From Hyphomicrobiales bacterium (GTDB lineage: Bacteria > Pseudomonadota > Alphaproteobacteria > Parvibaculales > Parvibaculaceae): a DNA stretch of 64,000 nucleotides. Position numbers and translations under genes: made by a program. The stretch's first letter is position 1; the number at the start of each line of letters is the position of its first letter. Below, piece by piece: positions 18,081 to 26,940 of this stretch. The notes below the pieces were generated by a model that was given only the letters and a program-made list of their open reading frames with translations, was not told the origin of the DNA and did not search any database. The DNA is taken from positions 62,001 to 126,000 of the forward strand of contig WGND01000004.1 in the NCBI GenBank assembly GCA_016124805.1, written 5' to 3'.

Positions 18081-18140
18081 TCCCTCGCCCCTGAGGGGAG
18101 AGGGGGAGGCGGACCGCAAGGTCCGGCGAGGGTGAGTGGG
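18081..18140. repeat. Dispersed CTCTCCCC/GGGGAGAG palindromic element, copy 1
   Basis: Contains CCCCTGAGGGGAGAGGGGG, then GGACCGCAAGGTCCGGCGAGGGTGAG. It shares both blocks with the elements at 21563-21676, 22775-22888 and 25434-25523. Confidence 0.75.
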
Positions 18141-18268
18141 AGGTGCATTTCAAAAAAAATTGCATTTTGTGAGTTATCCCCACTTGCAGCGCAACGCTGC
18201 GACCCTATCTACCATCCATATCAGGAATTGCGCCCGCAGGACGGGCCACCAGAAAAGCTCCTTACAAT

Positions 18269-18682
18269 TTGGCGACACGATTAACCAGCACGACGCGGGC
18301 AACCAGCACAGTGCCGGAACCCAAACCCACGCCGCCGCCTGCGGTGACGCCTGCGCCGAAGAAACGCGCAACGGCCAAACAGCTGGCGACACGGCTGCGT
18401 GACCTGATCGAGCGCGAAATTGCCGATATCGAGGTTGAGGGCAAACGCAAACGTGCAGCGAGCGATCGCGAACGCGCAGCACGGCAACTGGCCTCGCTGG
18501 TGCGCTCGCTTGAAAAGCTGAATGAAATCGATCTGGCCGACAAGGCGCGCCGCGAGGCCCGCGCCGCCGCCCGTAAAACAGAGGATGAAGACCATCGCGC
18601 CGAACTTGAACGCCGCCTCACTCGCCTTGCCACGTTGCTGGCGGCTGAGGCAGGCGCTGATGGCGAGCCTGAGCCAGCATGA
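18269..18682 (+). CDS. GTA g1-like protein, probable small terminase
   Basis: 137 residues, first gene of the GTA cluster. The N-terminal third is Pro/Thr-rich and low in complexity. The rest is a highly charged helical region with RARQLASLVRSLEKLNEI-like heptads (ARQLASLVRSLEKLNEI, about residues 70-87) that resembles GTA g1 proteins, which act as TerS and present DNA to the large terminase. The frame begins with TTG at 18269; a GTG 14 codons later is an alternative and neither has a clear ribosome binding site. It overlaps terL by 23 bases. The identification rests on position and on the helical LEKL region more than on a firm motif. Confidence 0.6.
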   Translation: MATRLTSTTRATSTVPEPKPTPPPAVTPAPKKRATAKQLATRLRDLIEREIADIEVEGKRKRAASDRERAARQLASLVRSLEKLNEIDLADKARREARAAARKTEDEDHRAELERRLTRLATLLAAEAGADGEPEPA

Positions 18683-19901
18683 AGCCCGCGCGCTGCTGGA
18701 AGACTGGCGCTTCTGGGCGCGCGACGATCAATTGGCCCCCGACGCCGACTGGACGACCTGGCTGTTGCTCGGCGGACGCGGCGCGGGCAAGACACGCGCC
18801 GGGGCCGAATGGGTGCGCGGCGAGGTGGCGGCAAAACGCGCCGGCCGCATCGCGCTGATCGGCGAGACGCTGGGCGATGTGCGCGAGGTGATGATTGACG
18901 GGCCCTCGGGCCTGCGTGCGGTGGAGCCGCTGCGCCGCCGCCCGCGCTATGAAGCCTCGCGCAAACGCCTGCTCTGGGAAAACGGCGCGGTGGCCTATGC
19001 CTTTTCGGCGTCCGAACCCGACAGCCTGCGCGGGCCGCAATTTGATGCTGCCTGGGCCGATGAGATTGCCAAATGGCGCTATGCCGAAGCGACATGGGAC
19101 ATGCTGCAATTCGGCCTGCGGCTGGGCGATCAACCGCGTCAGGTGGTGACGACGACACCGCGCCCGGTGCCGATTGTCAAACGCATGCTGAAGGACAGGC
19201 GCACCGTGGTGACGAAGGCAAGCACGCTGATGAACCGCGCCCATCTGGCTGAAGGCTTCTTTGCCAGCGTCATTGCGCGCTATCAGGGCACGCGGCTCGG
19301 GCGGCAGGAGCTCGATGCCGAACTGATCGAGGATAATCCCGATGCGCTGTGGTCCCGCGAGATGATCGAGCAGGCCCGTGTCGGCACGGCCCCGGCGATG
19401 GCGCGCGTTGTGGTGGCGGTGGACCCGCCCGCGACCAGCGGCCCCAAGGCCGATGAATGCGGCATCGTGGTGGCGGGGCGCGATGAGATGGGGCGCGGTT
19501 ACATATTGGAGGACCGCTCGATGGGCGGGCTGACGCCGCTGACCTGGGCGAGCCGCGCGGCCAAGGCCATGCGTGATTTTGAGGCCGACCGGATTGTTGC
19601 CGAAGCCAATCAGGGCGGCGAGATGGTGGCGGCGATCCTGCGACAGGTGGCGCCGCTCGCGCCGCTGAAACTGGTGCGCGCGAGCCGCGGCAAATACAGC
19701 CGGGCCGAACCTGTGGCCGCCCTTTATGAACGCGGGCTTGTGAGCCATGTCGGGCATTTTGCAAGGCTCGAAGATCAGATGTGCGACTACGCACCGGGCA
19801 TGGGGGCCAAGAGCCCCGACCGGCTTGATGCGCTGGTCTGGGCGCTGACCGAGCTGATGCTTGATGGCGAGGCGGGCAAGCCCAAGGTGCGGGGATTGTG
19901 A
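18660..19901 (+). CDS. terL: GTA g2, large terminase subunit
   Basis: 413-residue packaging motor. The N-terminal ATPase has Walker A GGRGAGKTRAGAEWV (about residues 34-48) and a Walker B/coupling region near AAWADEIAKW. The RNaseH-like nuclease begins at VVVAVDPPATSGPKADECG (about 245-265, first catalytic Asp), with a later acidic pair around KSPDRLDALVWAL near the C-terminus. The DNA-packaging terminase of GTAs cuts host DNA in headful fashion. ATG at 18660 is chosen because the conserved protein begins there; the frame is open further upstream inside g1. Overlap with g1 implies coupling. A repeat-filled spacer of 180 bases follows before the portal gene. Confidence 0.93.
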   Translation: MASLSQHEARALLEDWRFWARDDQLAPDADWTTWLLLGGRGAGKTRAGAEWVRGEVAAKRAGRIALIGETLGDVREVMIDGPSGLRAVEPLRRRPRYEASRKRLLWENGAVAYAFSASEPDSLRGPQFDAAWADEIAKWRYAEATWDMLQFGLRLGDQPRQVVTTTPRPVPIVKRMLKDRRTVVTKASTLMNRAHLAEGFFASVIARYQGTRLGRQELDAELIEDNPDALWSREMIEQARVGTAPAMARVVVAVDPPATSGPKADECGIVVAGRDEMGRGYILEDRSMGGLTPLTWASRAAKAMRDFEADRIVAEANQGGEMVAAILRQVAPLAPLKLVRASRGKYSRAEPVAALYERGLVSHVGHFARLEDQMCDYAPGMGAKSPDRLDALVWALTELMLDGEAGKPKVRGL

Positions 19902-19908
19902 ATTTCAC

Positions 19909-20053
19909 CCCTCACCCGGCTCGCGTTGCGACCCGACCTCTCCCCTGAGGGGAGAGGTTATTGAGACCAGAGCCTGAACCCTCTCCCCTCGGGGAGAGGT
20001 TATTGAGACCAGAGCCTGAGCCTTCTCCCTTCGGGGAGAGGGTTGGGTGAGGG
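19909..20053. repeat. Tandem palindromic repeats between terL and portal
   Basis: The unit CTCTCCCC-TGA-GGGGAGAG followed by GTTATTGAGACCAGAGCCTGA occurs at 19938-19978 and again at 19981-20019 (with CTCGGGG in the centre). A third palindrome CTTCTCCCTTCGGGGAGAGG follows at about 20022-20041. The block is framed by CCCCTCACCC and GGGTGAGGGG, giving an overall inverted arrangement. Confidence 0.75.
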
Positions 20054-20083
20054 GGCTTTCTGCAAATGTTGAAAGGAAAGACC

Positions 20084-21295
20084 ATGCCAGCAGATGTGAG
20101 GGCCGGGCCATGGGCGCGGCTGGCCGCGATGATGGGCGCAACGCCCGCACCGCTCGCACCACGCGAGGCCAAGGCAAGCCGCACCGGACCGCTCGTCGCG
20201 CTGTCGCTGACGGGGCGACCTGTCTGGACGCCGCGCGACTATGCAGCGCTGGCGAGCGAAGGCTTTGCAAAAAATGCCGTCGCCTATCGCTGCGTGCGGA
20301 TGATTGCCGAAGCCGCCGCCTCCGTTCCCTGGCTGCTTTATGAGGGCGAGCGCGAACTGAGCCGGCATCCGCTGCTGACATTGCTCAACGAGCCCAATCC
20401 GCAGGAGAGCGGCGCCGACCTGATGGAAAGCTGGTATGGCTTTCTGATGGTCGCGGGCAATGCCTATCTGGAACTGGTGGAGGCGGGCGGCACCCCGCGC
20501 GAACTCTATGCGCTGCGGCCCGACCGTATGAAAGTGGTGCCCGGCGATAATGGCTGGCCGCAGGGCTATGAATATGCCGTCAACGGACGAACGGTGACGA
20601 TCCCGCGCAACGCGCAGACGGGCGAAATGCCGCTCCTGCATTTGCGGCTCTTTCACCCGAGCGATGATCATTATGGCATGAGCCCGCTGGAAGCCGCCGC
20701 CTATGCCATCGATATTCACAATGCGGCGGGTGGCTGGAACAAGGCGTTGCTCGACAATGCGGCGCGACCCTCCGGCGCGCTGGTTTACAAGGGCGGCGAG
20801 GCGGGCATGAACCTGACGGAGGACCAGTTCGAGCGCCTGAAGCGGGAGCTTGCCGATAATTATCAGGGCGCGGGCAATGCCGGACGCCCGCTGCTGCTCG
20901 AAGGCGGGCTGGAATGGACCAGCATGGGGATGACGGCCAAGGACATGGATTTCATCGAGGCCAAACGCGCCGCCGCACGCGACATTGCGCTCGCCTTTGG
21001 CGTGCCGCCCATGTTGCTGGGGATTCCCGGCGACAACACCTATTCAAATTATGCCGAGGCCAATCGCACCTTCTGGCGTCAGACCGTGCTGCCGCTGGTG
21101 GGGCGCACCTCGCGCGCGCTGAGCCGCTGGCTGGCGCGGCGCTACGGGGCGGAGCTCAGGCTCTGGTATGACGCCGATGCGATTGAGGCGCTGGGCAGCG
21201 AACGCGAGGCACTCTGGGCGCGTGTCTCGGCAGCGGATTTTCTGAGCGATGATGAGAAACGGTCGGCGTTGGGGTATGGCAGGACGGAGGCGTGA
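20084..21295 (+). CDS. GTA g3, HK97-type portal protein
   Basis: 403 residues. The portal forms the dodecameric ring through which DNA enters the capsid. The phage_portal pattern is clear: NAVAYRCVRMIAEAAASVPW (about residues 65-85), HPLLTLLNEPNPQESG, LMVAGNAYLELV and LRPDRMKVVPG, then DIALAFGVPPMLLGIPGDNTY split around residues 300-320, and the wing/crown helices. The ATG at 20084 has GAAAGGAAAG upstream; an in-frame ATG six codons earlier is less well placed. The gene follows the repeat-filled spacer and ends 1 base before the next start. Confidence 0.93.
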   Translation: MPADVRAGPWARLAAMMGATPAPLAPREAKASRTGPLVALSLTGRPVWTPRDYAALASEGFAKNAVAYRCVRMIAEAAASVPWLLYEGERELSRHPLLTLLNEPNPQESGADLMESWYGFLMVAGNAYLELVEAGGTPRELYALRPDRMKVVPGDNGWPQGYEYAVNGRTVTIPRNAQTGEMPLLHLRLFHPSDDHYGMSPLEAAAYAIDIHNAAGGWNKALLDNAARPSGALVYKGGEAGMNLTEDQFERLKRELADNYQGAGNAGRPLLLEGGLEWTSMGMTAKDMDFIEAKRAAARDIALAFGVPPMLLGIPGDNTYSNYAEANRTFWRQTVLPLVGRTSRALSRWLARRYGAELRLWYDADAIEALGSEREALWARVSAADFLSDDEKRSALGYGRTEA

Positions 21296-21296
21296 G

Positions 21297-21566
21297 ATGG
21301 AGAGTGAAGCCGGAGAGGCAAATGGCTGGCACCTCGACAAGCGCGTGCCCATTGCCATGATCGTGGCGATCATCATCCAGTCGGGCGCGGGGCTCGTCTG
21401 GGCGGGTGCGGCCAGCGAAAGGCTGGTCTCGCTGGAAGGGCGCTCGCTGCGCACCGACGAAGTGGTGGAGCGCACCGCGCGGCTCGAAGAACAGTCCCAC
21501 GCCATGCGCGCCTCACTCGCCCGCATTGAAGACAAGCTCGACCGCGCTGTGGCAGGGCGAAGGTAA
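21297..21566 (+). CDS. GTA g3.5-like small membrane protein
   Basis: 89 residues: a short charged N-terminus, a transmembrane helix (VPIAMIVAIIIQSGAGLVWAG, about 16-36; 20 of it hydrophobic) and a C-terminal amphipathic helix/coiled coil (RLVSLEGRSLRTDEVVERT to IEDKLDRAVAGRR). The same position in the Rhodobacter GTA holds a small gene called g3.5. Function is unknown. The ribosome binding site GGAGG is inside the end of the portal gene. The last 14 codons are duplicated in degenerate form at 21754-21799. Confidence 0.65.
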   Translation: MESEAGEANGWHLDKRVPIAMIVAIIIQSGAGLVWAGAASERLVSLEGRSLRTDEVVERTARLEEQSHAMRASLARIEDKLDRAVAGRR

Positions 21567-21676
21567 GGCAGCGGTTGTTGCTTCCCCTCACCCGCGCTCA
21601 TGTCATTCGCTTGCCCTCTCCCCTGAGGGGAGAGGGAGAGACGGACCGGATGGTCCGGCGAGGGTGAGGGGCCATG
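21563..21676. repeat. 114-bp direct repeat, copy A (before lepB)
   Basis: Starts GTAAGGCAGCGGTTGTTGCT over the g3.5 stop codon and ends GAGGGTGAGGGGCCATG. By eye it differs from copy B at 22775-22888 in 3 of 114 bases. It contains the CCCTCTCCCCTGAGGGGAGA palindrome and the GGACCG/CGGTCC-type arm. The two copies flank the lepB gene in the same orientation. Confidence 0.85.
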
Positions 21677-21689
21677 GCTGACAAAAGAT

Positions 21690-21717
21690 GGATGTCCGGA
21701 TCAAGTCCGGGCATGAC
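21690..21717. repeat. REP-like hairpin unit
   Basis: GGATGTCCGGATCAAGTCCGGGCATGAC type: arms GTCCGG and CCGGGC around ATCAAGT. It is related to the units at 17985 and 29184 and lies in the lepB-side spacer. Confidence 0.65.
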
Positions 21718-21753
21718 AGCCCAATGAATACCTAAGAAGGTGCATGTGATCGG

Positions 21754-21799
21754 ACGCCATGAAGACAAGCTGGATCGGGCCATGGCGGGGCGAAGGTAA
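21754..21799 (+). pseudogene. Duplicated 3' end of the g3.5 gene
   Basis: Translating this stretch in the right frame gives HEDKLDRAMAGRR and a TAA. The end of g3.5 reads IEDKLDRAVAGRR and a TAA, and both are followed by GGC. The nucleotide match is GAAGACAAGCT...GGGCGAAGGTAAGGC with several substitutions. No start or body of a gene precedes it, so this is a fragment left by duplication or recombination. Confidence 0.8.
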
Positions 21800-21873
21800 G
21801 GCGTGGATTCCCTGTGGAGACTGTCACATTGTTCCCCTAAAGTCGGAACAGTGAAACAGGGTATGGGGTCCCG

Positions 21874-22764
21874 ATGTCTGAGGAAAAAACGATACGAAAG
21901 ACCTGGCTGGTTATCTTGATATTTCTGGTGACTTCACCTGTTGTCGGGATGCTTTATCTGGGTCGATGGTTTTGGGCCTTTGTTTATCTGCTTCTGGGCT
22001 TTGCCATTATCTATTTCACAGAGTCAGTCTGGCAGGTCGGGCCTTTCAGCCCGCAAGGAGCTGCCCTTTTATTGTTCTTTGTCCTGATCGGAATGGTTCA
22101 CGGATCTATCCTTTCCCATCGCAAGGTGGAGTTGCCAGCAGCGAAAGCGATACTCGGCAGCATTTTGACGATTGTGGCCTTTGCGAGTGGATTATGTTTC
22201 GTTTTCTTTTTTGGATTTCTTAATCGTCCATTTGCAATGACGGCAACGTCCATGCTGCCAACACTCAATGCGGGGGACTATTTGCTGGCGGACAAGAGAG
22301 CCTATCGGGAGGACAAGCCTGTCTTTGGTGATGTTATCATTTTCTGGTCGCCAAGCCTGAAAAACTATTTTGTGAAACGTGTGGCAGGATTGCCGGGTGA
22401 CCGCGTGCAGATGAAGCAGGGCGAGCTTTATATCAATGATGAAAAAGTGGCGCGAAAAGAGCTGCCGCCTTTTGAATATGAGCAGCGCGAGGTGGAAGTG
22501 ATCGGCGAATATCGACCGGATGGCCGCATGTATCGTACGTTGAATCTGGCGGATGGCAGCTTTGTCGATGATACAAATGAACTTCTTGTACCGGAGAACC
22601 ACTATTTTGTGCTGGGCGACAATCGGGACAATTCTTCCGATAGCCGACTTGCTGGTCAGATAGGTTTTGTGGATGAGGCTGATATCATCGGGCGTGCCAC
22701 TTATATTTACTGGGACAATCGGAAGAAGGAAACCGTCTTCCGGCCAATCGACGAATTGCCATGA
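21874..22764 (+). CDS. lepB: Signal peptidase I inserted in the GTA cluster
   Basis: 296-residue membrane serine protease that removes Sec/Tat signal peptides. The N-terminal 115 residues hold about four hydrophobic segments, more than the one or two of a standard LepB. The catalytic domain follows: Ser126 in TSMLPTLNAGDYLL, Lys168 in YFVKRVAGLPGDRV, and box E as GDNRDNSSDSR (about 252-262). All catalytic elements are intact. The base composition is visibly less GC-rich than the GTA genes on both sides. Nearly identical 114-bp repeats flank it and a terminator follows. GTA clusters do not normally carry a signal peptidase, so this is an insertion. The ATG has no strong ribosome binding site. 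Confidence 0.88.
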   Translation: MSEEKTIRKTWLVILIFLVTSPVVGMLYLGRWFWAFVYLLLGFAIIYFTESVWQVGPFSPQGAALLLFFVLIGMVHGSILSHRKVELPAAKAILGSILTIVAFASGLCFVFFFGFLNRPFAMTATSMLPTLNAGDYLLADKRAYREDKPVFGDVIIFWSPSLKNYFVKRVAGLPGDRVQMKQGELYINDEKVARKELPPFEYEQREVEVIGEYRPDGRMYRTLNLADGSFVDDTNELLVPENHYFVLGDNRDNSSDSRLAGQIGFVDEADIIGRATYIYWDNRKKETVFRPIDELP

Positions 22765-22774
22765 TCTCCATGGC

Positions 22775-22888
22775 GTAAGGCAGCGGTTGTTGCTTCCCCT
22801 CACCCGCGCTCATGTCATTTGCTTGCCCTCTCCCCTGAGGGGAGAGGGAGAGACGGACCGCTTGGTCCGGCGAGGGTGAGGGGCCATG
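22775..22888. repeat. 114-bp direct repeat, copy B (after lepB)
   Basis: Same sequence and orientation as copy A (21563-21676), with three differences: C to T in the GTCATTCGCTTG stretch and GA to CT in the GGACCGGATGG stretch. It begins 11 bases after the lepB stop. Confidence 0.85.
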
Positions 22889-22912
22889 ACGGCCTTACAA
22901 TTATTAAGAGAC

Positions 22913-22945
22913 AAAGGCGCCCAGGATCGGGCGCCTTTTTGTTTG
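22913..22945 (+). terminator. Rho-independent terminator upstream of GTA g4
   Basis: Stem AAAGGCGCCC / GGGCGCCTTT with an AGGATC loop, then TTTTTGTTT. It sits 24 bases after repeat B and about 15 bases before the g4 start. It would stop lepB transcripts and also read-through from g1-g3.5. Confidence 0.8.
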
Positions 22946-22960
22946 TGAACGGAGGATCAT

Positions 22961-23635
22961 GTGATCGAACAGACCAAGCGCCGGCACGCGGCAAGTCACC
23001 AGCAGGTGATCCGCACCGAATTCAAGAGCGTGAGCGCGGACGGGCATTTTGAAGGCTATGCGAGCCTTTTCGGGGCCGAAGATCTGGGCCGCGACATGGT
23101 GATGCCCGGCGCGTTTCAAGCTTCGCTCGAACGGCGCGGCCCGCGCGGCGTCAAGATGCTCTACCAGCACGATCCCAATGAGGTGATCGGGGTCTGGCAC
23201 AGGGTGGAGGAGGATGCGCGCGGCCTGCATGTGGAAGGCGAATTGCTGGGTGACGTTACCCGCGCCCGCGAGGTGCTGGCGCTGATGCGGGCCGGTGCGA
23301 TTGACGGGCTCTCCATCGGCTATCACGTGGTCAAGGCGCAGGCCGACCGCAAGCGCGGGGCGCGACGGCTGATCGAACTTGATCTCTGGGAAATCTCGGT
23401 GGTGACCTTTCCGATGCTGCCCGATGCCCGCGTGGCGCGCGTGAAGCATGTCAACCGGCCCAATGAACGCGAATTTGAACGCTGGCTGCGATACGAGGCC
23501 GGCTTCAATCAAGAGGAGGCCCACGTGATCATCACGCGTGGCTTCAAATCCCTGAAAGCGTCGCCCATGGCGGCGCTGAGCGACGGCGCACTCGCCCGGA
23601 AGATCCGGTCGGCAGCGCTCACGATCCGACCTTAA
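22961..23635 (+). CDS. GTA g4, HK97-type prohead protease
   Basis: 224 residues. The U35-type prohead protease cleaves the capsid protein's N-terminal delta domain during maturation. Family features: EFKSVSADGHFEGYASLFG (about 20-40), GRDMVMPGAFQASL, KMLYQHDPNEVIGVW with the catalytic His (about residue 70), and IDGLSIGYHVVKA with the catalytic Ser (about 117). The ELDLWEISVVTFPMLPDA segment is also typical. The start is GTG at 22961 with GGAGG at 22951-22955. It comes straight after the terminator, so expression of g4 onwards may need its own promoter. The major capsid gene follows after 17 bases. Confidence 0.92.
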   Translation: MIEQTKRRHAASHQQVIRTEFKSVSADGHFEGYASLFGAEDLGRDMVMPGAFQASLERRGPRGVKMLYQHDPNEVIGVWHRVEEDARGLHVEGELLGDVTRAREVLALMRAGAIDGLSIGYHVVKAQADRKRGARRLIELDLWEISVVTFPMLPDARVARVKHVNRPNEREFERWLRYEAGFNQEEAHVIITRGFKSLKASPMAALSDGALARKIRSAALTIRP

Positions 23636-23652
23636 CCCAACAGGAGAGTTCC

Positions 23653-24951
23653 ATGACTTCATGGCAGAACGACGTCCCGCGCATCGGGACGGCGCTGAAG
23701 ACGCTTGAGCAGAAAAGCGTGGGCGAGCGCCCCGCCGCAACCGAAGTACGCGAGGCGATGGATGAATTTCTGTCCGCCTTTGACGCCTTCAAGGCGGCCA
23801 ATGACGAACGCCTCGACCAGATCGAACGCAAGATGGGCGCCGATGTGGTGACGGAAGACAAGGTGGAGCGCATCAACCGCGCGCTCGACCGCCAGATGAA
23901 AACCGTGGACGAGCTGGCGCTGGCCATGGCACGGCCCGAAATCGGCGGCGAGATGCCGACCCGTCTTGATCCGGCGCGACGCGAACATAAACGCGCCTTC
24001 GACCTTTATGTGCGCAAGGGCGATGCGCCTGATCTGCGCGCACTGGAAGCCAAGGCACTTTCGGCCCAGTCCGACCCCGATGGCGGCTATCTGGTGCCGA
24101 GCGAAACCGAACGGCTGATCGACCGCATCGTCTCGGAAGCCTCGCCCATCCGCGCCATTGCCGGGGTGCGCCAGATCGGGGCGGCGAGCTACAAGAAGCC
24201 TTTCACGACCAGCGGCCCGCAATCGGGCTGGGTCGGCGAAAGCGAAACACGCACCGAAACCGAGGCGCCCAAACTCTCCGAGCTGGAATTTCCGGCGATG
24301 GAACTTTACGCCATGCCTGCGGCCACCAGCACGATGCTCGATGATGCCGCTGTCAATATCGACCAGTGGCTCGCCGAAGAAGTGCAGACCGTCTTTGCCG
24401 AACAGGAAGGCGCGGCCTTTGTGAATGGCGACGGGGTGAAGAAGCCGCGCGGTTTTCTGTCTTATGACGCGGTCGCCAATGCCGACTGGTCCTGGGGCAA
24501 GCTCGGCTATCTGGTGACGGGCAATGCGGGTGCCTTTCCGGTTTCCAATGCCGCCGACACGCTGATCGACATGATCTATGCGGTGAAGGCGGGCTACCGC
24601 GCCAATGGCCGTTTTGTCATGAACCGTTCGACGCAATCGGCGATCCGCAAGTTCAAGGATACCGATGGCAATTATCTCTGGCAGCCGGGCCTGAGCGCGG
24701 GCGCGGCCCCGACGCTGCTCAACTATCCGGTGACGGAGGCCGAAGACATGCCCTCCATCGGCACGGATGCGATGGCGCTTGCCTTTGGCGACTTCAGGCG
24801 CGGCTATCTGATCGTCGACCGGCTGGGGGTGCGCGTGCTGCGCGATCCCTATAGCGCCAAGCCCTATGTGCTTTTCTATACGACCAAGCGCGTGGGCGGC
24901 GGGGTCCAGAATTTCGAAGCGATCAAGCTTCTGAAATTCGGTACGGCGTGA
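23653..24951 (+). CDS. GTA g5, HK97-type major capsid protein
   Basis: 432 residues. The first 115 or so form a charged coiled-coil delta domain, removed by the g4 protease (a linker near ARREHKRAFDLYVRKG). The capsid domain follows, with SDPDGGYLVPSETERLIDR (about 135-153), IRAIAGVRQIG, the beta-hinge region WVGESETRTET and the C-terminal AFGDFRRGYLIVDRLGVRVL. The pattern is that of HK97-fold capsids of GTAs. The ribosome binding site is AGGAGAG before the ATG at 23653. The next gene starts 10 bases after the stop. Confidence 0.94.
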   Translation: MTSWQNDVPRIGTALKTLEQKSVGERPAATEVREAMDEFLSAFDAFKAANDERLDQIERKMGADVVTEDKVERINRALDRQMKTVDELALAMARPEIGGEMPTRLDPARREHKRAFDLYVRKGDAPDLRALEAKALSAQSDPDGGYLVPSETERLIDRIVSEASPIRAIAGVRQIGAASYKKPFTTSGPQSGWVGESETRTETEAPKLSELEFPAMELYAMPAATSTMLDDAAVNIDQWLAEEVQTVFAEQEGAAFVNGDGVKKPRGFLSYDAVANADWSWGKLGYLVTGNAGAFPVSNAADTLIDMIYAVKAGYRANGRFVMNRSTQSAIRKFKDTDGNYLWQPGLSAGAAPTLLNYPVTEAEDMPSIGTDAMALAFGDFRRGYLIVDRLGVRVLRDPYSAKPYVLFYTTKRVGGGVQNFEAIKLLKFGTA

Positions 24952-24961
24952 GGAGGGGCTG

Positions 24962-25393
24962 ATGAAAGATCTGCATCACAATATCAAAACCATCCTGACG
25001 CTTGATCCGGCGGTGACGACGGCGAGCCGCAGTGGCGCGCCGGTGGACGGGCGCGGCTTTCAGGCGGTGGAACATGTCGCCTGTTTTGGCGCGAGCGGCG
25101 ACACGCTTTCGGGCAGCGACTATTTCGAGCTGAAGCTGGAGGCAAGCAGCGATGCCGCCAACTGGTCGCCGGTGAACGAGGCAACCCATGTGCTGGGCGG
25201 GCCGGTAAGCGAAGCTGGGGTCTTTGCCACGATTGACGATGTGAGCGGCGACCAGACCGACTATCGCATCGGCTATGTCGGACCTGCCCGCTACAGCCGC
25301 CTTGTGCTGGTGGTGACGGGCACACATGACAATGGTACGCCCGTTTCGGCGCTCGCCATTCTTGCCGCCGCGCATGTCAAGCCGGTGGTGTGA
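24962..25393 (+). CDS. Capsid-adjacent beta-rich protein of unknown function
   Basis: 143 residues with no signal peptide or membrane segment. The sequence is rich in short beta-strand-like segments (YFELKLEASSDAANWSPV, IDDVSGDQTDYRIGYVG, RYSRLVLVVTGTHD). Proteins with this YRIGYVGxxRYxRLVxxxTGT ending are often encoded after the major capsid gene in siphophages, where a structural or decoration role is suspected; this is recalled, not verified. In the Rhodobacter GTA cluster no gene stands between g5 and g6. The ribosome binding site GAGGAGGGG overlaps the end of the capsid gene's spacer, so it is cotranscribed with the capsid gene. Confidence 0.6.
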   Translation: MKDLHHNIKTILTLDPAVTTASRSGAPVDGRGFQAVEHVACFGASGDTLSGSDYFELKLEASSDAANWSPVNEATHVLGGPVSEAGVFATIDDVSGDQTDYRIGYVGPARYSRLVLVVTGTHDNGTPVSALAILAAAHVKPVV

Positions 25394-25433
25394 CCGGTGT
25401 TGTGAGAAGACTGCCAGAGACATGACCGCGTTT

Positions 25434-25523
25434 CCCCCTCACCCTCGCCGGTCCTTGCGGCCCGGCTCTCCCTCTCCCCTCAGGGGAGAGGGCAAGCGAA
25501 TGCAATGAGCGCGGGTGAGAGGG
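25434..25523. repeat. Dispersed palindromic element, inverted copy
   Basis: Reverse complement of the copy A/B type: CCCCTCACCCTCGCCGGTCC, then CTCTCCCCTCAGGGGAGAGG and GCAAGCGAATGCAATGAGCG. It lies between the capsid-adjacent gene and g6. Confidence 0.75.
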
Positions 25524-25546
25524 ATGACGTCAGAAGGAATGAACCC

Positions 25547-26101
25547 ATGACCATGACCCTGACAAGCGGGCCGGCCGATGAGCCGGTGACGCTGGCTGAT
25601 GCGCGTGCCTTTCTGCGGCTGGATGATGCCACCGAAGACGCTTTGCTGTCGGCGCTCATCACGGCGGCGCGGCTGACACTCGAACATGTGACGCGCCGCG
25701 CCTTTGTCAGCCAGAGCTGGCGGCTGACGCTTGATGAGTGGCCCGGGCGGCAGGTGGCGCTGCCGATTGCGCCGGTCTCGGATGTGAGCGAGATCAGCGT
25801 CGATGGCGAGGTGCTGGATGAGGCGCTTTACAAGCTGGACCTGGAACACGAGCCGCCGCGCCTGGTGCTGAAGAAAAATGCGGTCTGGCCGCAACCGGCA
25901 GCGGGCAGCGGCGGCATTGATATCGACATGGTGGCGGGCTTTGGCAGCGCTGTCGACGTGCCGCAACCGCTGAAGCAGGCGCTGCTGATGCTGGTCGCCC
26001 ACTGGTTTGAAAATCGCGAACCCATCGCCTTTGGCGGCAGCCAGACGCTGCCGCTGTCGGTTGATGCGCTGATCGCGCCCTGGCGGAGGCTGCATCTGTG
26101 A
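25547..26101 (+). CDS. GTA g6, head-tail connector (adaptor)
   Basis: 184 residues. The adaptor ring binds under the portal. The N-terminal part EPVTLADARAFLRLDDATED (about 12-31) with LLSALITAARLTLEHVTRRA is the helical head-tail connector pattern (gp6/HK97 gp6-like family). A beta-rich domain and a helical C-terminus follow. The ATG at 25547 has GAAGGAA upstream; the frame extends 14 codons further back into the repeat, which is not a plausible start. The stop overlaps the GTG of g7 by 4 bases. Confidence 0.85.
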   Translation: MTMTLTSGPADEPVTLADARAFLRLDDATEDALLSALITAARLTLEHVTRRAFVSQSWRLTLDEWPGRQVALPIAPVSDVSEISVDGEVLDEALYKLDLEHEPPRLVLKKNAVWPQPAAGSGGIDIDMVAGFGSAVDVPQPLKQALLMLVAHWFENREPIAFGGSQTLPLSVDALIAPWRRLHL

Positions 26102-26427
26102 GCCGGATCGGAGCCATGCGCGCGCGTGTGACGCTGCAGGCGGCAACGCGGGAGAGCGATGGCGCGGGCGGCAGCAACTTGGGCTGGAGCGATGTCGCCA
26201 CGCTCTGGGCCGCCGTGACACCGCGCAAGGGGCAGGAGCGCCTGATCGGCGAACGCCCGGAAGCGCGGCAGACATGGGAGGTTGTGATGCGCTGGCGCAA
26301 TGATGTGACGAGCGCCCACCGGCTCCTTTGGCAGTCGCGCGTGCTGACGATTGAAAGTGTGGTTGATCCCGACGGCCGCAAACGCTGGCTGCGGATCGAA
26401 GCCGAGGAGGGACGCCATGAGCCTTGA
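26098..26427 (+). CDS. GTA g7, head-closure (stopper) protein
   Basis: 109-residue head-tail joining protein of the SPP1 gp16/HK97 gp7 type, which closes the connector after packaging. Family features: RARVTLQAATRESDGAGG near the start and WAAVTPRKGQERLIGER (about 40-57), then MRWRNDVTSAHRLLWQSRVL (about 65-84). The start is GTG at 26098, overlapping the g6 stop (GTGA). Its 3' end overlaps g8 by 11 bases, so g6-g7-g8 are translationally coupled. Confidence 0.85.
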   Translation: MSRIGAMRARVTLQAATRESDGAGGSNLGWSDVATLWAAVTPRKGQERLIGERPEARQTWEVVMRWRNDVTSAHRLLWQSRVLTIESVVDPDGRKRWLRIEAEEGRHEP

Positions 26428-26824
26428 TGCCGACCTTGCTTTGCAGCAGGCGATCTTCGCCCGGCTTGGCGCGGATGCGGGCGTGAGCGCGCTGGTCGGC
26501 ACGCGTCTTTATGACAATGCGCCGGGCGAGACGGGCTTCCCCTATGTGACCCTGGGCGAGAGCGACATGCGCGACTGGAACACGGGCGACAGCCATGGCA
26601 GCGAGCATCGGCTGACATTTTATGTGTGGTCGCGGGCCGGTGGCCGCAGCGAGGCCAAAGCCATTCTCGGCGCGATCCGCGCATGTCTTGAGGAAGCCGC
26701 GCTCAGCCTTACCGACCATGATCTGGTCAATCTGACATTCACGGGGAGCGACACACGGCGCGCCCCGGATGGTGCGACATGGCGCGGGGCCATCCGCTTC
26801 CGCGCGGTGACGGAGAGAATTTGA
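26417..26824 (+). CDS. GTA g8, tail terminator (DUF3168)
   Basis: 135 residues, DUF3168 family, which caps the tail tube at the head side. MSLDADLALQQAIFARLGAD at the start, GTRLYDNAPGETGFPYVTLG (about 30-49) and HRLTFYVWSRAGGRSEAKAI match the family closely. ATG at 26417 has GGAGGGACG upstream inside g7. It is followed by a repeat-filled spacer of 141 bases before g9. Confidence 0.88.
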   Translation: MSLDADLALQQAIFARLGADAGVSALVGTRLYDNAPGETGFPYVTLGESDMRDWNTGDSHGSEHRLTFYVWSRAGGRSEAKAILGAIRACLEEAALSLTDHDLVNLTFTGSDTRRAPDGATWRGAIRFRAVTERI

Positions 26825-26830
26825 ACGGCG

Positions 26831-26940
26831 CTCTCTTACCTCTCCCCCGGCGGGAGAGGTCGGAACGCGGATGCGTTCCGGGTGAGGGGGCACTTTCGGA
26901 TGACACCCCCCACCCAACCCTCCCCCGCAAGGGGGGAGGG
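26831..26940. repeat. Palindromic repeats between g8 and g9
   Basis: Three hairpins: CTCTCCCCCGGCGGGAGAGG (26840-26859), GGAACGCGGATGCGTTCCG (26862-26880), and CCCTCCCCCGCAAGGGGGGAGGG-like arms near 26918-26940, separated by GGGTGAGGGGGC. The layout resembles the other GTA-junction elements but the sequence has diverged. Confidence 0.65.

Follow-up and report, generated by a model that had tools for sequence, protein, structure and literature searches.

A moron-like signal peptidase I gene, probably of long residence, in the g3.5-g4 spacer of an RcGTA-type gene cluster

Our analysis of the window, a 64,000-nucleotide stretch (G000:C5:62001-126000) of a 3.2-Mb alphaproteobacterial genome (G000), leads us to regard, with reasonable confidence, the lepB gene between g3.5 and g4 of a GTA cluster as a long-resident, moron-like paralogue of the signal peptidase I gene whose product has four transmembrane (TM) segments, and the g3.5-g4 spacer as a slot that gains and loses passenger genes, several of them encoding proteins with signal peptides. 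Most likely, lepB is a passenger at a tolerated position, and its insertion was accompanied by a duplication of the g3.5 end that has remained as a scar. At the same junction, one congener (G016) carries an intact lepB orthologue (44% amino acid identity over residues 8-293) and another (G003) a truncated one comprising the C-terminal 108 residues. Both lack the 114-bp repeats that flank lepB in the window, and 15 congeners have no lepB there, which together indicates that lepB is an old accessory gene.

The cluster is of the RcGTA type. Its collinear genes, recognized by matches to Pfam, TIGRFAM and NCBIfam-type profiles, include those encoding the terminase, HK97 portal, prohead protease, HK97 capsid protein, tail proteins with an RcGTA-type tape measure, baseplate hub and megatron. 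The matches to NF048004 (megatron), TIGR02217 and TIGR02218 are above the cut-offs, while that of the tape measure protein to NF058675 (E=6e-50) is under the curated cut-off of this profile. The g3.5-g4 spacer contains copy 1 of a 114-bp repeat, another g3.5 tail, lepB, copy 2 of the repeat and a terminator hairpin, in this order (Table 1). No Rfam matches were found within positions 15000-40000 of the window. A previous sequence-only reading had described lepB as complete and as foreign to the GTA cluster, which is otherwise collinear, and the ORF, the profile matches and the neighbouring genes agree with this. The features ascribed to the locus in that reading also stand: a GC content lower than that of the surroundings (48.7%, vs. 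61% for the window and 65% for the portal gene), extra N-terminal membrane segments (four predicted, vs. one in the housekeeping LepB encoded on contig C20 of the same genome), direct repeats of 114 bp with three differences (97% identity in the alignment), and a second, decayed copy of the last 14 codons of g3.5 (45 nt at 82%).

Table 1. Features of the terminase-capsid part of the GTA cluster, in window positions
Feature	Position	Strand	Basis or remark
GTA large terminase (g2)	18522..19901	+	Pfam Terminase_6N/6C
GTA portal (g3)	20066..21295	+	TIGR01537
g3.5, 89 aa, intact	21297..21566	+	orthologues in all genus members having the region
Tail 1, final 45 nt of g3.5	21522..21566	+	sequence comparison
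114-bp direct repeat, copy 1	21563..21676	+	21 bp of g3.5 stop/flank, then palindromic element at ~21584-21671
Tail 2, duplicate of tail 1 (45 nt, 82%)	21755..21799	+	
Accessory signal peptidase I (lepB), 296 aa, 4 predicted TM, Ser126/Lys168	21874..22764	+	
Possible third g3.5 end remnant (CCATGGC-GTAAGGC)	22768..22781	+	by reading; short, uncertain
114-bp direct repeat, copy 2, 97%	22775..22888	+	
Intrinsic-terminator hairpin (22913-22938) with T-run, upstream of g4	22913..22945	+	family-conserved
GTA prohead protease (g4)	22961..23635	+	TIGR01543
GTA major capsid protein (g5)	23653..24951	+	TIGR01554

The product of lepB matches the profiles of Peptidase_S26 (PF10502, E=4.5e-42, 144 bits, cut-off 22.9) and of signal peptidase I (TIGR02227, E=7.8e-43, 146 bits, cut-off 47). 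Its catalytic dyad, assigned by alignment to solved LepB, consists of S126 in the motif TSMLPTL and K168 in KRVAGLPGD, and both residues are kept in the G016 orthologue. The boxes SMxPTL, KRxAGxPGDRVQM and GDNRDNSxDSR are conserved between the two proteins, and the Ser and Lys boxes as well as box E (GDNRDNSxDSR) align with those of bacterial signal peptidase I of family S26A (1B12, 1T7D). Unlike the housekeeping enzyme with its single TM segment, the GTA-LepB is encoded inside a GTA cluster and has four predicted ones. The identity of the window and G016 lepB genes at the three codon positions (0.54/0.68/0.42) indicates purifying selection on the protein. We estimate that LepB may be a working peptidase retained for a role in the envelope or in secretion, in a cluster whose spacers tolerate cargo; it would process envelope or secreted proteins rather than take part in building the particle. 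That lepB is instead a decaying hitch-hiker with no function in the GTA context seems unlikely to us. Its loss or absence in most congeners, its truncation in G003 and its AT-richness in the window fit such decay, but in two genomes that have diverged from each other the ORF is complete and the catalytic boxes are intact, and the first two codon positions are constrained.

Within the genus, this LepB paralogue was found solely in the window genome, G016 and G003, i.e., in intact or truncated form in 3 of the 18 congeners bearing the junction. In a phylogenetic tree, the GTA-LepB proteins of the window and G016 form one clade (100/98) on long branches, apart from the housekeeping LepB of the genus; this position and the four-TM architecture rule out that lepB is a copy of the housekeeping gene. 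The first 160 residues of LepB were used as the query in a search of the kind proposed along with the sequence-only reading. It did reveal relatives, in 3 of 384 other sampled alphaproteobacteria, but none of them adjoins a tested GTA gene (terminase to capsid) within about 1.5 kb of flanking DNA. The sole close relatives in GTDB r220 are ordinary one-TM LepB proteins of two MAGs. A phage origin of lepB was also considered and rejected: the phage matches are partial (up to about 71% of the query) and, among the ten matches listed, of less than 36% identity. They come from records of Firmicutes or faecal phages that lack annotation, and were judged to represent host contamination or unrelated sequences. 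In the open-access literature, we found no paper on cargo slots of GTAs or on signal peptidase genes within their clusters.

Other genes occupy the same slot in relatives. In G016, g3.5 is followed by a gene of the Imm-NTF2-2 family (PF15631) in reversed orientation, a second g3.5 tail, lepB, a gene for protein Y (secreted, as judged by eye), the terminator and g4. In G004, the order is g3.5, a repeat, a reversed Imm-NTF2-2 gene, a second g3.5 tail with the same flank (229 nt, 84%), the terminator and g4, and in G003 the truncated lepB and two Y-like genes lie between g3.5 and the terminator that precedes g4. No cargo is present at this junction in G006, G007 and G015. Cargo bracketed by a duplicated GTA gene end was found in three congeners and, at neighbouring junctions, in two distant alphaproteobacteria. 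One of the latter (G148, L115 599-2373, minus strand) carries a candidate defence pair, DUF5131 and a PDC-M30A-like gene, between g4 and the capsid gene. In the other (G040, L078), the portal-g3.5 spacer contains a gene of 153 aa whose start is copied from the first part of g3.5, with a full g3.5 following. A gene for a GAF-EAL protein lies between the terminase and portal genes of G024 (L070 1527-2765; Pfam match) and G008 (L072 444-1682; assigned by a closely similar ORF), and G164 has an acyl-CoA dehydrogenase gene in the g3.5-g4 or a neighbouring GTA spacer. No large integrative elements were seen at the junction in the class sample, where the portal-to-capsid distance stays within about 4.3 kb. 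An extra gene between structural genes that is absent from most congeners is a trait of prophage morons, and variable prophage hotspots such as those of P2/P4 (PMC9122126) likewise have extra genes that lie between conserved structural genes and vary among relatives. The differences are that the carrier is a GTA cluster, that gene-end duplications bracket some of the cassettes, and that lepB, which gave no match in PADLOC, is not a defence gene.

In G016 and in the window genome, the second g3.5 tail lies directly upstream of lepB (59 and 74 nt). The local alignment of the two tails of the window has a score of 50, compared with a maximum of 25 for shuffled sequences; behind lepB, there is only a short possible third copy, while in G004 the second tail is on the far side of the cargo. 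In all three genomes, the duplicated 3' ends start, give or take a few nucleotides, at one common Arg codon and run to the stop codon. The two tails are more similar within a species (0.82-0.91) than the second tails are between species (0.67-0.80), so the duplications may be independent, or may have been converted or homogenised rather than inherited. As judged against shuffled spacers, the 3' end of the upstream gene is copied in G000, G016 and G004 (g3.5) and in G148 (83 nt of the g4 end, 88%, bracketing the cargo in the g4-capsid spacer), and the 5' end of the downstream gene in G040. Among the 163 GTA spacers measured, 31 are of at least 550 bp, and 3' end duplications occur in 4 of these 31, a count in which the three congeners are perhaps not independent and the distant genomes had been picked for long portal-capsid distances. 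Of 181 control gene ends, all from the window's own genome and inspected within 1.6 kb, one is duplicated.

These duplications could reflect a mechanism in which a terminal stretch of a GTA gene, 40-90 nt at its 3' or 5' end, serves small cassettes as an attachment site or region of homology. Integration would restore the gene end and leave a second copy beyond the cassette, and would depend on a recombinase acting in trans or proceed by homology-facilitated illegitimate recombination. We treat this as a tentative possibility. It is favoured by the common starting point of the g3.5 duplications in the three congeners, by the bracketed pair of G148, by the fusion of the duplicated g3.5 5' end to a cargo gene in G040 and by the rarity of such duplications among the control ends. 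However, none of the cassettes contains an integrase, and between g3.5 and g4 of the window and of three cargo-bearing relatives there is no integrase-like ORF and no room for one. Many cargo-bearing spacers (G018, G024, G164, G262 and others) are free of duplications, the shared boundary could be accounted for by common ancestry, and a short g3.5 tail duplication without cargo in G031 implies that tandem slippage alone suffices to make such copies. The broader proposition that alphaproteobacterial GTA clusters have defined landing sites at gene ends such as those of g3.5 and g4, where the insertion of a cassette entails an exact duplication of 40-90 nt of the end and leaves the GTA gene intact, appears to us rather improbable. 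If true, the cassettes using these sites would carry immunity-like, defence-candidate, secreted-protein and signal-peptidase genes, and GTA clusters, usually described as streamlined and conserved, would be cargo platforms into which genes are integrated in trans or by GTA-borne recombination. If the duplicated ends do trace back to a genuine insertion mechanism, GTA clusters would have to be counted, like prophages and satellites, among the cargo platforms.

The sequence-only reading had proposed a duplication or a capture by repeat-mediated recombination. The duplication of g3.5 DNA stands and is part of the history of what does look like a stable moron-like gene; a recent capture of lepB through the 114-bp repeats is already largely refuted, and we give it very little credence. 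The low GC content of lepB and its position between repeats of 97% identity that have a non-element flank in common speak for capture, but the G016 orthologue resides at the same junction without these repeats, and the identity of the repeats far exceeds that of the lepB orthologues, so the repeats are probably younger than the residence of lepB at the junction. Comparison of the junction in relatives had been named as a possible refutation of the earlier reading: G016 and G003 indeed have lepB without the repeats, while most congeners have no lepB. Another objection, that the repeats are random members of an abundant family, does not apply. Although most of the repeat, from position 22 to 109, is a palindromic element of a family with further copies in the genome and genus, the first 21 bp, which correspond to the g3.5 stop codon and its downstream flank, are common to only the two copies flanking lepB, and one repeat is thus a segmental copy of the other. 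Copy 2 starts at the g3.5-derived GTAAGGC and so also carries a bit of the g3.5 end. Most likely, the segmental copy was made in this lineage when lepB was already in place. The repeats are near-identical rather than identical, and excision of lepB by homologous recombination between them would be possible.

The palindromic family, which we presume to be comparable to the REP/RIME-type dispersed repeats of alphaproteobacteria, resembles these in its general features (short, intergenic, palindromic, multicopy) rather than by a match to a named family. It differs from them in its unusual concentration in the GTA cluster: 7 of the 19 cores in the genome (with up to 2 mismatches) lie within about 9 kb (18082-26939), where about 0.05 would be expected if they were evenly spread. 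Congeners contain 0-26 exact copies, and no such enrichment was seen in G014, whose four exact copies are all far from the GTA cluster.

Returning to the long-resident passenger, its shared junction with G016, the G003 remnant, the conserved catalytic residues and the g3.5 ends beside the cargo count for long residence. The insertion could have happened once, in an ancestor, and been followed by losses, or repeatedly, with end duplication. In the former case, a common ancestor of G000, G016 and G003 would have acquired lepB in a single step that also duplicated the g3.5 end; the gene would then have diverged fast and been lost or truncated in other lineages, and the g3.5 flank with the palindromic element would have been copied to its far side in the window lineage only. 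Separate imports would fit the difference in the GC content of lepB (48.7% in the window vs. 58.8% in G016). Also against a single entry are the long lepB branches, the closer similarity of the tails within than between species, and the tree of GTA genes, where the lepB carriers are not a clade, the placement of G000 being weakly supported.

No promoter-like site was seen just upstream of lepB, and the terminator downstream of it is that of the cluster rather than its own; lepB would probably share a transcript with the genes at the front of the cluster (terminase, portal, g3.5), ahead of this conserved terminator. When the 160 nt preceding each gene were scored by one and the same rule in the family and the outgroup G040, a hairpin with a T-run was found before g4 in 23 of 30 genomes, compared with 2 of 23 for the portal gene, 1 of 24 for g3.5 and 0 of 26 for the capsid gene, and shuffled sequences gave none. 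G018 and G022 are among the few genomes in which the best hairpin by this rule is not the nearest to g4; a nearer one was seen by eye. The stems differ in sequence between species. The presence of a recurrent passenger slot, with GTA genes intact, beside a family-conserved terminator connects GTA regulation with accessory gene content in a way that can be tested.

The terminator at 22913-22945 is a candidate attenuator or anti-termination point of the GTA operon. In Caulobacter crescentus, terGTA consists of three GC-rich direct repeats of 150 bp located behind gtaT, and GafZ allows the polymerase to pass it (PMC11150451). The window cluster shares two features with that system, a terminator located among the GTA genes and a spacer with GC-rich direct repeats that contain inverted repeats, but its putative terminator before g4 is a classical hairpin with a T-run. 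By analogy, the capsid genes would need read-through here as well, and lepB would be on the front side of the barrier. Directly 3' of the terminase gene of the window (19937-20041), there are tandem direct repeats of 42 bp, rich in GC and accompanied by inverted repeats, which resemble terGTA of C. crescentus as described; long direct repeats are likewise present in the terminase-portal spacer of G014 and G011.
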